64,000 nucleotides of DNA from an uncultured Draconibacterium sp. (GTDB lineage: Bacteria; Bacteroidota; Bacteroidia; Bacteroidales; Prolixibacteraceae), in assembly GCF_963675585.1 (NCBI RefSeq), contig NZ_OY776413.1, positions 248,001-312,000 on the forward strand, in the 5' to 3' direction. The notes beneath the pieces are model-generated. The model made no database searches and had not been told where the DNA came from. It saw nothing but the letters and a program-made list of their open reading frames with translations. Positions 49,923-61,690 of the stretch are shown here, one piece after another (positions within the stretch are counted from its first letter, which is position 1; the number at the start of each line of letters is the position of its first letter). Made by a program: the position numbers and the translations under genes.

Positions 49923-51731
49923 TTGATTAGCACCGAAGGATATATTGTTCTTGCAATTGTTTTTATAACAATTATTGCGCTTGCAAAAGAAATAATGCGG
50001 CCGGGCCTTATTTTCTTTTCAGCTGCGATCATTCTTGTGGCAACCGGAATTATTACCGATAAAGAAGCACTTGCCGGTTTCTCGAATAAAGGAATGATCA
50101 CCATTGGAATTCTGTTTATTGTGAGCGAAGGTGTGCGGCAATCGGGCGTATTAAACCGGCTTGCACAAACCTATCTCCCCCGTAAACGGCGAAAAATGGT
50201 TTCGCTTATTCCGCAAATAATGCTTCCGGTCTCCTTGCTTTCTGCATTTCTGAACAACACTCCCGTTGTAATTATTTTTGCTCCAATCATAAAAAAGTGG
50301 TCAGAAAACCTCAATCTTTCCTCCAAAAAATTTCTGATTCCCCTTTCGTATGCAACCATTTTTGGAGGCATGTGTACACTTATCGGAACATCGACAAACC
50401 TGGTTGTGCATGGTTTAATTATTGAAAATGGCTACGAAGGTTTTAATATGTTTGAACTGGGGAAAGTAGGTGTATTTATTGCCGTTATTGGTACCATTTA
50501 CATGACCATTTTTAGTAACCGATTTCTTCCGGGAGAGAAAATATTTTTTAATTCGAAAAGTTCTACCGAGTACAAAGACTATCACTACGATGTTATTATC
50601 CCGGAAGGCAGTAACCTGATTGGATTGGAAATTAAAAACGGCAGATCAAAAGATTTAAAAGGCCTTTTTATTCAGATCATAAATCGTGAGGGAAACGTAA
50701 TTGAAACCCGGAAAGGGATATTTAAACTTTTGGCAAACGACAGACTGCTGGTAGCCGGAAAATCGGATCGGCTAAATTACATTCTGGCCAATTCAAACTT
50801 AAAATTAAGCGGCATTGATTTAATAAAAGGAGTGCCTAAAAACGATTTAAAACAATACGAAGCGGTATTGGCTCCCCGTTTTCCGGCCATTGGTAAAACA
50901 GTACACGAGTTTAATTTTTACGACCACTACCAGGCCGTTGTTTTGGCCATCCACCGAAATGGAGAACGTATTACCACCAACATGGACAAACTCCATTTAA
51001 AAACCGGAGACAACCTGGTACTGCTCACCACCGAAAAATTTATCGAAAACTGGGGCGATTCAAAAATATTCTATCTCACTTCCTACATACGCGATTACAG
51101 AACAACAGGTACATTCTGGAAAAAATGGATCGCTACCATAATTCTTCTGGCCATGGTTGTGGGTACCACTGTCGGAAAATTTATTTCTTCTCCTGATGGT
51201 ATTAATTTCGATATGTTCTATTTCTCGTCGATTGCAGCCATGTTATTAATCTGGCTAAAAATAATGCCACATCAAAAATATACGAAGGCAGTTAGCTGGG
51301 ACGTTCTGATTACTATTGCCTGTGCTTTTGCCATTAGTAAAGCCATGCAAAGCTCCGGTGCAGCCGAAGCCATTGCACGAACCACAATAAACATGTCGCA
51401 AAGTTTTGGCCCGCTTGGAGTAATGGCAGCCTTGTTTCTGATTACCGCTATTTTTACCGAAATTATAACAAACAATGCGGCAGCGGCGCTGGTATTTCCA
51501 ATTGCTCTGGCAGCGGCACAACAACTAAATGTCGATCCAAAGCCATTTTTTGTAACCATTGCTATTGCTGCATCAGCCAGTTTCTCAACTCCTATTGGCT
51601 ACCAAACAAACCTTATTGTACAAGCCATCGGAAATTACAAATTCAGCGACTACGTAAAAATTGGTTTACCTCTTAATCTTCTTGCCTTTATTTTGTCCAT
51701 GCTTCTTATCCCCTACTTTTGGAGTTTCTAA
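49923..51731 (+). CDS. SLC13/DASS family permease with two RCK_C (TrkA-C) domains, probable sulfate transporter
   Basis: A 602-residue inner-membrane protein. The start is a TTG at 49923: an in-frame stop at 49905 and the promoter box rule out anything upstream, and residues right after it form the first membrane helix. Two membrane halves flank two TrkA-C-type domains (about 205-290 and 300-390). DASS signature elements are NNTPVVIIFAP, TNLVVHG, TNNAAAALVFP and GYQTNLIVQ. This architecture occurs in bacterial sulfate permeases, and the next genes are cysD and cysNC, so sulfate is the likely substrate. Other divalent anions cannot be excluded. A GAGGAG stretch is present but about 20 bp from the start. 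Confidence 0.88.
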   Translation: MISTEGYIVLAIVFITIIALAKEIMRPGLIFFSAAIILVATGIITDKEALAGFSNKGMITIGILFIVSEGVRQSGVLNRLAQTYLPRKRRKMVSLIPQIMLPVSLLSAFLNNTPVVIIFAPIIKKWSENLNLSSKKFLIPLSYATIFGGMCTLIGTSTNLVVHGLIIENGYEGFNMFELGKVGVFIAVIGTIYMTIFSNRFLPGEKIFFNSKSSTEYKDYHYDVIIPEGSNLIGLEIKNGRSKDLKGLFIQIINREGNVIETRKGIFKLLANDRLLVAGKSDRLNYILANSNLKLSGIDLIKGVPKNDLKQYEAVLAPRFPAIGKTVHEFNFYDHYQAVVLAIHRNGERITTNMDKLHLKTGDNLVLLTTEKFIENWGDSKIFYLTSYIRDYRTTGTFWKKWIATIILLAMVVGTTVGKFISSPDGINFDMFYFSSIAAMLLIWLKIMPHQKYTKAVSWDVLITIACAFAISKAMQSSGAAEAIARTTINMSQSFGPLGVMAALFLITAIFTEIITNNAAAALVFPIALAAAQQLNVDPKPFFVTIAIAASASFSTPIGYQTNLIVQAIGNYKFSDYVKIGLPLNLLAFILSMLLIPYFWSF

Positions 51732-51800
51732 TTCAAATCAAGTTCATCTTAATTTTAGACCTTTTAGTCTTAATCTACTATTCAAATAGGAATAAAATTT

Positions 51801-51883
51801 TATCTTTGCATTCCCTTTAAAAGTAGTAATTGAATTAATAAAAATACCCGGACTACGTTTGTATTGAATAAGGCGGGTTCGGG
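51801..51883 (+). promoter_or_regulatory. Promoter box and structured leader of the cysD operon
   Basis: TATCTTTG at 51801-51808 matches the -7 consensus, although the -33 position is poor. The resulting leader is about 100 nt and contains a 7-bp stem, CCCGGAC (51847-51853) with GTTCGGG (51877-51883), one G-U pair, around a 23-base loop. It could be a cis-regulatory element for sulfate assimilation. I do not recognise a known riboswitch. Confidence 0.45.
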
Positions 51884-51913
51884 AACAGTTTTATTAAATA
51901 AAAACAGATACGA

Positions 51914-52822
51914 ATGAATGAATATTCATTAACCAATCTTCGCGAGCTAGAGGCAGAAGCCATTCACATTATCCGCGAAGTGGCAGCCGAATTCGAAAAC
52001 CCGGTAATGCTTTATTCCATTGGAAAAGACTCATCAGTAATGGTGCGTTTGGCCGAAAAAGCATTTTATCCCGGTAAAGTACCTTTCCCTTTGATGCACA
52101 TCGACTCGAAATGGAAATTTAAGGAGATGATCGAATTTCGTGAGCAATATGCCAAAGATAAAGGCTGGGACTTAATTGTTCACCACAACAAAGAAGGTTT
52201 CGAAAGTGGCGTTGGTCCGTTTACACATGGTAGTAAAGTACACACCGACATTATGAAAACTCAGGCTCTGCTTGAAGGTTTAAACATTCATAAATTCGAT
52301 GCAGCTTTTGGTGGTGCCCGTCGTGATGAAGAAAAATCGAGAGCCAAAGAACGCATCTTTTCGTTCCGCGATAAATTTCACCAGTGGGATCCTAAAAATC
52401 AGCGTCCGGAATTGTGGAACATCTACAATTCGCGTGTACAAAAAGGCGAATCAATTCGTGTATTCCCCATTTCAAACTGGACAGAACTCGATATCTGGCA
52501 GTACATTCGTTTGGAGAATATTCCAATTGTGCCACTTTACTACGCCAAAGAACGCCCTGTTGTGAACATGGATGGCAGCCTGATTTTGGTTGACGACGAA
52601 AGGATGCCAAAAGAACTGCGCGACAAAGCAGAAATGAAAATGGTTCGCTTCCGTACTTTAGGGTGTTACCCTTTAACGGGAGCCGTTGAATCGAACGCAA
52701 CTACCATCGAAGAAATTGTGGAAGAAATGATGACCGTAACCGTTTCGGAACGTACTACACGTGTGATCGATTTTGACCAGGAAGCAAGTATGGAACAGAA
52801 AAAACGCGAAGGCTATTTTTAA
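51914..52822 (+). CDS. cysD: Sulfate adenylyltransferase subunit 2
   Basis: A 302-residue cytoplasmic protein of the PAPS-reductase/ATP-sulfurylase (PP-loop) fold. The PP-loop variant [10 protein letters not shown] lies at about 35-44, with [16 protein letters not shown] and [16 protein letters not shown] downstream as in CysD. With CysN it makes adenosine 5'-phosphosulfate from ATP and sulfate, driven by GTP hydrolysis. It is the first gene after a ~100-nt leader. Unusually it is separated from cysNC by a small four-helix-bundle gene inside an inverted repeat that begins 8 bp after the cysD stop. Confidence 0.97.
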
Positions 52823-52829
52823 CTTATAA

Positions 52830-53291
52830 CCGTTCAGCCGTGTTGCTGTAAAATGTGAAGCTGTTTGGCTTTGTAATACAGTAATCCAACAAAACAGTAA
52901 AACAATCAAATATGCTGGTTACTCGATTTGAAGATCTTGAGATTTGGAAATTAGGAAGAATAATTGTAAAAAATGTTTATTCCGATTTTGATTCTTTAAG
53001 TGATTTTGGATTTAAAGGCCAGATTACACGAGCAGGAATATCAATTATGAATACTATTTCTGAAGGTTTTTCAAGAGAATCAAAAAGAGAGTTTCATCAA
53101 TTCCTGAATATTGCGAAAGGTTCTACTGGCGAAGTAAAAAACATGTATTACATTGCTGAAGACCAAAATTATATTTCATCTGAAATTGCAATACAAAGAC
53201 GAGAGGATTGTGAGAAAGTTAAAAACATGATTGCAAAATTCATGAAACATCTAAAACAATAATCCAGCGTTACAGCAACACAGCATAACGG
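52830..53291 (+). mobile_element. IVS-like cassette: S23/four-helix-bundle gene framed by 22-bp inverted repeats
   Basis: A 462-bp unit lies between cysD and cysNC. Its ends (52830-52851 and 53270-53291) are inverted repeats identical at 19 of 22 positions; the inner 12 bp (GTGTTGCTGTAA and complement) are perfect. Inside is one gene of the family known from intervening sequences in 23S rRNA, where flanking repeats also pair and the insert is cut out by RNase III. There is no transposase and no clear target duplication. The mobile-element label is therefore tentative; a structured mRNA insert is the other reading. Confidence 0.55.
52912..53262 (+). CDS. Four-helix-bundle protein (23S rRNA intervening-sequence protein / S23 family)
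   Basis: A 116-residue all-helical protein matching the S23/IVP family. Landmarks are the N-terminal [18 protein letters not shown], the central [26 protein letters not shown] and the later [28 protein letters not shown]. Family members form pentameric four-helix bundles; relatives include the Avd accessory protein of diversity-generating retroelements. The cellular role of most copies is unknown. It lies 89 bp after cysD and 73 bp before cysNC and is unrelated to sulfate metabolism by sequence. Its flanking inverted repeats suggest it came as a unit. No reverse transcriptase or template repeat is present, so it is not part of a DGR here. Confidence 0.9.
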
Positions 53292-53319
53292 CAACACAAT
53301 ACAACGGCAACACAGCAAA
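53272..53319 (+). repeat. Three tandem 16-bp repeats before cysNC
   Basis: Units begin at 53272, 53288 and 53304, each opening with AC(A/G)GCAACACA followed by a more variable 5 bp. The first unit and the start of the second overlap the right inverted repeat of the S23 cassette. The repeats end 17 bp before the cysNC start codon. Confidence 0.8.
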
Positions 53320-53335
53320 ACAAAAGCATCAAAAA

Positions 53336-55255
53336 ATGACAGATAAAAAACTCAACATACAGGAATTCCTCGATCAGGATCAAAAGAAAGACTTACTTCG
53401 CTTGTTAACTGCAGGTTCGGTCGACGATGGAAAATCAACACTTATCGGACGTTTGATGTTCGACAGTAAAATGTTGTACGAAGACCAGTTGGATGCACTC
53501 GAACGCGACAGCAAACGTGTTGGTCATGCCGGCGAAGACATCGATTACGCCCTTTTGCTCGACGGACTAAAAGCCGAACGCGAACAGGGAATTACCATCG
53601 ACGTGGCTTACCGGTATTTTTCAACTGCAAAACGCAAATTTATTATTGCCGATACTCCGGGACACGAGCAGTACACCCGTAACATGATTACCGGTGGATC
53701 AACTGCCAACCTGGCCATTATTTTAATTGATGCACGCTACGGTGTAATTACCCAAACCAAACGCCACACCTACCTGGCCAATCTTTTGGGAATTAAACAT
53801 GTGGTAGTGGCGGTAAATAAAATGGATCTTGCTGATTTTAGCAAAGATCGTTTTGAAGAAATCCGTGCTGACTACAATTCGTTCGTTACCCAACTCGATA
53901 TTCCTGACGTAACTTTTATTCCGCTTTCGGCGCTAAAAGGCGACAATGTTGTGGAACCATCGGAAAACATGACCTGGTACCATGGTCCGTGCCTCCTTGA
54001 GTTTTTAGAAAATGTACAGGTAGCTTCCGACCGCAACTTCACTGATTTGCGTTACCCGGTTCAGTATGTACTTCGCCCGGATATTAAATTCCGCGGATTT
54101 TCAACTTCAGTAGCTTCGGGTATTATTTCCAAAGGCGATGAAGTAATGGTTCTTCCTTCGATGAAAAAATCGAGAGTACAGTCGATTGTAACCTACGACA
54201 AGGAACTGGAACGTGCATTTCCTCCGCAATCGGTAACGGTTACACTGGAAGACGAAATTGATATTTCGCGTGGAGATATGTTGGTACACCCTGACAACCT
54301 GCCCCGTGTGGAGCGTCAGTTTGAGGCCATGTTGGTTTGGATGGATGAAAACGAGATGAACCTTTCAACTCAATTTTACATCAAGCAGGCCAATAACACC
54401 ACAAAAGCCCGCATCGACGAGGTAAAATACAAGGTGGATGTAAACACACTGGAAAAATCAAGCATCGAAAAATTCAAGTTAAACGAAATTGGAAGAGTGG
54501 TTGTAACCACCACCAAACCTTTGTATTTCGACCCTTACAAACAAAATAAACAAACCGGTTCATTTATTTTAATCGACCCGGTAACGCACAATACCTGTGC
54601 GGTGGGGATGATCATCGACCGTTTGGGTAGCAAGAACCTGCCTTCGCGTATTACCGATGTAGACAAAGCGAAAATTGCCAAAGGCGAGCCACTTGTAAAA
54701 ACGGAAGATTACGTAAAACAATACAACCAGAAAGGGGAAACTATCTGGATTACTGGCTTGCATGGTTCGGGTAAAAACGAACTTGCTTTTAGCCTCGAAA
54801 AGAAATTATTTGAAAACGGTGCTACGGTTGTTTTAATCGATGGTAGTTCGGTACGTTCGGGATTAAGTCGCGAGCTTGACTTCACACCTGCCGACAGAGC
54901 CGAAAACCTTCGTCGTGTAGCCCACATTTGCAAACTGTTAAACGACCAGGGAATTATTGCCATTGCATCGTTTATCTCGCGCAACGAATCGCTGAGAAAT
55001 CAGGTGGCCGAAATTATTGGAGCAGATCGCTTCCACTTGTTCCACATGGATGCTCCGCTTGAATATTGCAAACAAAATAAACCGGAATTATACGAATTGC
55101 TTGAGCAAGGAAAAACAAGTAATCTTCCGGGTGTTGATATGGAATACGAAGCTCCAACAAATGCAAAACTGGTTTTCAATCCGAAAGATAACGAGGAAAA
55201 CCTGGATGCAATTATTGATTATCTGGCGGCAAACAAAGTGTTTCCTAATCACTAA
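53336..55255 (+). CDS. cysNC: Bifunctional sulfate adenylyltransferase subunit 1 / adenylylsulfate kinase
   Basis: A 639-residue fusion. Residues 20-440 are the EF-Tu-like GTPase CysN: G1 [10 protein letters not shown] (26-35), [12 protein letters not shown] and NKMDL. Residues about 465-635 are the APS kinase CysC, which phosphorylates APS to PAPS ([26 protein letters not shown], then a LFNP-like C-terminal region). The kinase P-loop is GLHGSGKN at 474-481, so the canonical Ser/Thr after the Lys is Asn481. That may reduce activity or be a Bacteroidota-typical form. It is followed after 11 bp by an epimerase gene. No APS/PAPS reductase or sulfite reductase is in the window. Confidence 0.95.
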
Positions 55256-56361: not shown

Positions 56362-56387
56362 AAGGCAGAATAACGTATTCGCAAAAG

Positions 56388-56426
56388 AAAAGACACGTGA
56401 TTTCTCAATAATCACGTGTCTTTTTT
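56388..56426 (+). terminator. Intrinsic terminator of the cysD-cysNC-epimerase operon
   Basis: A perfect 14-bp stem (56388-56401 with 56411-56424) with a 9-base loop and a six-T run, 27 bp after the epimerase stop. Confidence 0.9.
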
Positions 56427-56495
56427 ATTTCAGCACATAACATTTCATTAACAAGCATTAGCAGCGCGTTAACATCAAGGTTATACAAAGCGCTT

Positions 56496-61644: not shown

Positions 61645-61690
61645 ATTCAGCGGGTGAGTTTAAGTTTACACTCAAACTCACCCGCTGAAT
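61645..61690 (-). terminator. Hairpin terminator of rnpB
   Basis: A perfect 17-bp stem (61645-61661 with 61674-61690, 12-base loop) just past the RNase P RNA 3' end. A short T-rich stretch follows on the minus strand. Confidence 0.75.

Follow-up and report, generated by a model that had tools for sequence, protein, structure and literature searches.

A small S23-encoding element with inverted arms, probably mobile, between cysD and cysNC of an uncultured Draconibacterium sp.

Introduction

Intervening sequences (IVS) that encode S23 proteins are found in the 23S rRNA of Coxiella, Leptospira and other bacteria, as inserts of 400-500 nt. S23 proteins have mostly been encountered as rRNA curiosities. 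The solved member of the family is a pentameric ring related to Avd. As described in PMC4990558, the Coxiella 23S IVS is 428 nt long, has complementary ends and an S23 ORF directly preceded by tandem heptamers, and is cut by RNase III; the paper argues that this ORF is decaying and states that no function is known for S23 proteins. According to the accessible text of PMC10053308, PF05635 resembles Avd of diversity-generating retroelements, and PDB 2gsc is the structure compared with Avd.

Small mobile elements offer a second comparison. Like the S23 element proposed here, MITEs and TIR transposons are dispersing units bounded by inverted arms. Unlike them, the S23 element has no transposase inside, and its family has no set arm sequence. 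REP elements with RAYT (Y1) transposases are palindromic and intergenic, as S23 elements are. Among the open-licence papers listed, no description of non-rRNA S23 genes flanked by inverted arms of short period was found. The term S23 does not occur in the available part of PMC4679880, which deals with TAACTGA heptamer repeats. A 23S rRNA IVP domain appears in a figure legend of a CRISPR-discovery paper (PMC10910872). Short-period S23 arms may sometimes be mistaken for CRISPR arrays.

Results and Discussion

The insert between cysD and cysNC

In the window (the whole 64,000-nt stretch analysed, from an uncultured Draconibacterium sp. with a genome of 6.03 Mb on four contigs), the cysD-cysNC junction was 513 nt long and held one gene, encoding an S23/IVP protein. 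This placement, proposed in the preliminary description, was confirmed by the ORF coordinates and profile matches. The features were as follows:

51914-52822, plus strand: cysD (sulfate adenylyltransferase small subunit), the gene 5' of the insert; TIGR02039, 505 bits, above cut-off
52830-52851, plus strand: left arm, outer part; 19 of 22 positions complementary to 53270-53291, equalled in 0 of 5000 shuffles
52852-52910, plus strand: remainder of the left flank, 8-nt-period repeats, partly like the right flank in direct orientation
52912-53262, plus strand: S23/IVP four-helix-bundle protein, 116 aa; PF05635, 99.4 bits (cut-off 33.8), and TIGR02436, 91.9 bits (cut-off 24)
53270-53291, plus strand: right arm, inner part, by its complementarity to 52830-52851
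53292-53319, plus strand: right arm, extension as 8-nt-period repeats, by a periodicity test
53336-55255, plus strand: cysNC (sulfate adenylyltransferase large subunit/APS kinase), the gene 3' of the insert; NF004035, 875 bits, above cut-off

The PF05635 match, above the curated cut-off, was full length (profile positions 1-105 of 106), and the protein also matched PDB 2gsc with an E value of 1e-8. Apart from the S23 gene, no ORF of 80 aa or more lay between the arms, and no transposase or recombinase was present inside the element among ORFs of that size. Avd systems comprise a reverse transcriptase with template and variable repeats, whereas the window S23 gene is adjoined by cysD and cysNC, with no reverse transcriptase or template repeat beside it. 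The element and the 23S IVS both consist of one S23 ORF with complementary ends, but the 23S IVS lies in rRNA and the window element, which is not inside an rRNA gene, lies between protein genes of an operon. The insert was therefore classed as IVS-like and not as a 23S IVS, because the anatomy matches but the rRNA site does not. The earlier suggestion of an rRNA intervening-sequence layout, with complementary ends around an S23 ORF within a few hundred bases, was thus borne out. Four 23S motifs were absent from all 334 loci examined. Unlike the 23S IVS, S23 elements here are present more than once in a genome, and arm sequence differs between the copies.

The region 51700-53600 contained no terminator-like site, and its promoter-like sites were no more frequent than expected by chance. 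The single Rfam match in 51600-53600, mir-223, was below threshold and was rejected as not credible. Elsewhere in the window, two near-perfect palindromes with a short loop were noted, at 61645-61690 (95% over 21 nt) and 56383-56429 (90% over 20 nt), which are perhaps terminators.

Arms of the window element

Re-alignment of 52830-52851 with 53270-53291 reproduced the inverted repeats reported earlier, with 19 of 22 positions matching and the inner 12 bp perfect. The left arm had been placed 8 bp after the cysD stop; this figure stands if the first base of the arm is counted, and seven bases lie between. Inverted local alignment of the two junction flanks gave a score of 29, which was reached by 0 of 5000 dinucleotide shuffles of these flanks and by 2 of 4486 mismatched flank pairs from control genes. 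An 8-nt period was evident on both sides; 10 of 2000 shuffles were equally periodic for the right flank and 0 of 2000 for the left. The arms were longer and more regular than first described, the right repeats extending to about 53319. A scan of the whole window for inverted pairs of 20 nt or longer within 700 nt gave 16, of which the S23 arm pair was the sixth, so the length of the window arms is by itself unremarkable. The strong evidence for them is comparative.

Inverted arms around S23 genes

S23 genes were collected from the genus, the family, the phylum and named relatives, and control genes were taken from the same loci and from the window. After requiring at least 100 aa and 130-nt flanks and removing duplicates, 288 of 320 hits were retained (106 of 119 in the first sample), with start codons picked by script. 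Since the best-scoring Pfam matches among those listed and relatives of the window protein (L211-L290) were sampled, the frequencies below should not be read as population estimates. Of the 148 genomes sampled in the phylum, 116 carried S23 matches.

Of the 288 S23 genes, 204 had inverted flank similarity with a score of at least 24, a level reached by 16 of the 302 control genes and by 255 of the 6000 mismatched S23 flank pairs. At a score of at least 30, the corresponding counts were 129/288, 3/302 and 81/6000. Similarity in direct orientation was rarer (57/288 S23 genes at score 24), and 29/288 S23 genes were without arms (score below 18). One family member had 17 S23 matches, of which 16 were scorable and 14 reached at least 31. 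Most arms consist of degenerate repeats of 7-9 nt: of 158 non-redundant arms, 67 had a dominant period of 7 nt, 30 of 8 nt, 18 of 9 nt and 15 of another length, and 28 had none. The median element length in the non-redundant set was 497 nt.

Nine S23 matches were found in the genome of the window, namely the window copy and eight others, and the arm sequence varied by locus. Five of the eight intact copies, the window copy included, scored at least 24, and the others scored 22, 19 and 15; further armed S23 genes, for which the preliminary description had suggested a search, are thus present. The ninth match had a broken ORF, yet kept 18-nt arms at 89%. The nearest junction relative of the window copy (L033) had weak arms with an own score of 19; its S23 junction sequence, from a genome of the same family as the window, recurs in L212, a Prolixibacteraceae locus. 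Another relative of the window S23 gene (L213), which has an extended ORF and lacks the right arm, was rejected as an armed copy.

In paired arm segments of 159 non-redundant S23 loci, left G with right C was counted 1094 times and the reverse 545 times. The first arrangement is twice as frequent, so that the arms favour one orientation with respect to the S23 gene.

Both neighbours ran in the same direction as the S23 gene in 242 of 289 cases, and in 166 of the 201 loci of the non-redundant set; for control genes the count was 131 of 208. Over 121 loci, the arms started at a median of 4 nt past the upstream stop and ended 11 nt before the next start.

Concerted change of the two arms

When the left and right arms of a locus were compared with arms swapped between related loci, the own pair was better in 250/252 loci at 50-60% protein identity, 173/200 at 60-70%, 110/149 at 70-80%, 45/85 at 80-90% and 34/62 at 90-97%. 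The last value is hardly better than equality, which is expected if the arms have not yet diverged. These counts are unfiltered; requiring an own score of at least 22 gave 194/194, 147/159, 97/118, 35/64 and 30/48, and the unfiltered counts are preferred because this filter favours own pairs.

The same trend was seen in 12 orthologous S23 copies at one ABC-transporter junction, from which L168 was excluded because its flanks indicate another site. Own pairs had a mean score of 28.3 compared with 20.5 for permuted pairs, and 0 of 20000 permutations reached the own mean. Cross-genome identity was 0.62 for the arms (random, 0.55), whereas the S23 gene reached 0.74 and the upstream coding sequence 0.77. 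As arm identity is near random while own pairs still fit, the two arms that flank this conserved gene are rewritten fast and jointly. Substitutions at the three codon positions of these orthologues were 0.23, 0.10 and 0.51, a pattern that indicates purifying selection on the S23 protein. This differs from the Coxiella ORF, for which decay is argued in the available part of PMC4990558.

Arm sequence and S23 subfamily

Arms were also compared between S23 genes with no detected shared neighbour, neighbour sharing being judged on short flanks, so that some of these sites may be orthologous. The share of pairs with alike arms (score of at least 26) fell from 82% at 70-85% protein identity (51 pairs) to 53% at 60-70% (274 pairs), 18.5% at 50-60% (2180 pairs) and 4.8% at 40-50%. 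Below 40% identity the value was 2-3%, and control pairs gave 2.4%. Above 85% identity there were three such pairs, one with alike arms. When 287 arms were compared with the window right arm, five of the top six belonged to proteins 50-66% identical to the window S23 protein; one of these five (L211) adjoins a mazG-like gene and not cysD-cysNC. The sixth (L030) belonged to a protein only 24% identical. The unit, its arms, their co-variation and the link of arms to subfamily at sites without a shared neighbour are supported directly.

The S23 tree was built on 206 of 295 proteins. L211 and L213 part the window copy (L004) from L033 in this tree, with an SH-aLRT value of 93 against a mark of 95. 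The junction genes require five label changes, three of them forced, and fall on three separate branches; these changes may be arrivals or departures. One further S23 gene (L022_1022) lies upstream of cysD, outside the cysD-cysNC junction.

Dispersed copies and empty sites

Many S23 copies are common across the genus by descent. Copies at differing sites with homology ending at the arms were represented by one clear and one partial pair, both in relatives. In the clear pair (L064 and L133 of G007), the copies lie 9.4 kb apart and share 534 nt at 82%, the limits of homology fall inside both arms, and the flanks are otherwise unlike. The second pair (L215 and L225 of one metagenome-assembled genome) also fits dispersal, with an L225 contig too short for the left limit. 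Two L223 copies were not counted towards dispersal, since they share further sequence outside the arms and may have arisen by tandem duplication.

A 473-nt element separates G090 from its sister G089, with flanks 93% and 88% identical. The site lies between HlyD-like and ABC genes (these labels, and those of the mazG-like and hydrolase-like genes, were assigned by eye on the basis of translations). In G089, which is without the element, seven bases lie between the upstream stop and the next start. No target-site duplication was evident at this single filled/empty pair. The absence in G089 is likelier a loss than a gain, because other relatives carry the element at that site. In L332, the element contained no ORF of 90 aa or more besides the S23 gene.

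A clean-boundary empty site therefore exists for a relative, and at the window site only the right limit is readable. The closest relatives of the window (CysD 99% and 97% identical) have an S23-free cysD-cysNC junction, so that the empty junctions sought in related genomes are present. The sequence common to the window and S23-free L070 starts at about 53320. The right limit of the insert was placed there, because the last bases before cysNC are common to the S23-free close relatives.

Junctions were tallied for 30 of the 34 listed places in the genus and for the 25 places in the family nearest to the window, a hairpin being counted when its score exceeded those of all 60 shuffles. In the genus (n = 30), S23 was present in 7, another hairpin in 7 and neither in 16. 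In the rest of the family (n = 25), the counts were 5, 3 and 15, with 2 incomplete junctions.

Several other arrangements were observed at this junction. S23-free hairpins with a short period were found in L071, L082 and L092 (above all 60 shuffles) and, by eye, in L013 and L089-L091; these hairpins, with units such as GGATTCT/AGTATCC, resemble S23-less versions of the element. REP-like or other palindromes unlike S23 arms were seen in L011, L014, L083, L084, L031, L032 and L038. The cysD-cysNC gap thus collects palindromic elements, as several kinds of palindrome sit there in relatives. The junctions of L085 and L087, inspected by eye, have a truncated second cysN start and sequence partly common to both. 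Away from this junction, a Bacteroides locus carries a short-period hairpin without S23 beside a metallo-hydrolase-like gene (L245:192-294), and in the same locus the left flank of the S23 gene is itself a hairpin (L245:3903-3977).

With regard to REP elements, the genome of the window has 11 Y1 matches. Of 10 scorable Y1 genes, six (L353, L355, L356, L357, L359 and L360) had inverted flanks scoring 32-58, not made of short-period repeats, and four had none. A link between RAYT/REP and S23 arms was rejected, since the Y1 flanks, by eye, are of another kind.

Explanations for the insert

The insert (about 52830-53319) is probably a small IVS-like mobile element in which a left arm and a leader precede the S23 gene and a right arm follows it. 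On the best reading, the element settles in the sense direction in gaps between co-directional genes and is probably co-transcribed with the host operon. An overlooked kind of small mobile element is suggested because many relatives have the same layout, each with its own arm sequence. One dispersed pair, one presence/absence pair, junction S23 genes on three branches and purifying selection on the protein support this directly. The small non-autonomous mobile cassette, raised as an alternative in the preliminary description, thus gained support from dispersed copies, empty sites and subfamily-linked arms. In addition, the S23-free hairpins resemble deletion derivatives, as with MITEs. Several points speak against a mobile element: no transposase or recombinase lies inside, no target-site duplication is evident at the one pair, and the sense-orientation bias would be unexpected for a DNA element without selection. 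Moreover, many copies are inherited vertically, some S23 genes are armless, and the arms of L033 are weak.

In the proposed mechanism, the S23 protein would act on the arms of its element and help it to move or persist, and cutting and joining would be done by another enzyme. The complementarity of the arms would be kept mainly by copying between them at the DNA level, possibly through template switching in a hairpin or cruciform, rather than by selection acting on the single bases of an RNA stem. Pairing of the arms in the mRNA, followed by cutting there, is also possible and would make insertion into an operon harmless.

The alternative that the insert is an intervening sequence of the mRNA was also considered. 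In this case, the stalk in the cysD-S23-cysNC transcript would be cut by RNase III, splitting the operon, and selection would keep the stem. This explanation is possible, although we regard it as doubtful. It draws on the strong co-directionality with both neighbours, the co-variation of the left and right arms, and the Coxiella 23S IVS, which in the available part of PMC4990558 has the same anatomy, RNase III cutting and heptamers before S23. The arms are also paired in both the minimum free energy and centroid folds predicted for the sense RNA (z -2.55), but the minus strand is predicted to fold nearly as well (z -1.84). A selected sense-RNA stem should tolerate G.U mismatches and not A.C mismatches. 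In the 159 non-redundant loci (score of at least 24, relatives more than 80% identical dropped), no preference for G.U was seen in a comparison run without a positive control (144 G.U versus 164 A.C, p = 0.28), and the sense strand had no duplex advantage, being better in 85/159 loci (p = 0.25). The lack of a terminator-like site at the junction also counts against this explanation. The earlier idea that mRNA pairing and RNase III cutting keep the arms therefore found no support. Such strand symmetry points to upkeep at the DNA level or to neutral drift of copied arms, and does not imply that the transcript is uncut.

It is unlikely that the arms are 7-9-nt binding sites through which the protein of a domesticated S23 gene regulates its own operon via DNA or RNA. 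Such sites would agree with the tracking of the protein subfamily by the arms, the suitability of repeats for an oligomeric protein, purifying selection on S23 and the vertical stability of its copies, but orthologous arms change faster than the protein gene, which would be odd for a fixed site, and binding alone leaves the inverted symmetry, the dispersed copies and the multi-branch junction S23 genes unexplained. It is quite improbable that the short-period hairpins are neutral, common simple-sequence elements with S23 genes as chance passengers in their loops: similar S23-free hairpins do occur at the junction (L071, L082, L092) and near the hydrolase-like gene of L245, but arms scoring at least 30 are nearly confined to S23 genes (129/288 versus 3/302 controls) and arm sequence follows the S23 subfamily.

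Conclusions

Starting from the small mobile element favoured here, a wider hypothesis may be put forward tentatively, which we consider somewhat improbable. S23 cassettes would form a widespread mobile class with no fixed end sequence, whose copies rewrite their short-period inverted arms in concert; the S23 ring would recognise its own class of arm and guide the cassette into operon junctions, and the rRNA IVS would be a special case. The co-varying arms and dispersed copies give the S23 family a concrete, testable setting. They frame the questions of which enzyme moves the element, whether S23 binds the arms, how arms 400 nt apart change in concert and whether the operon is cut. S23 elements may link the intervening sequences of rRNA, and possibly Avd of retroelements, to one kind of small element.
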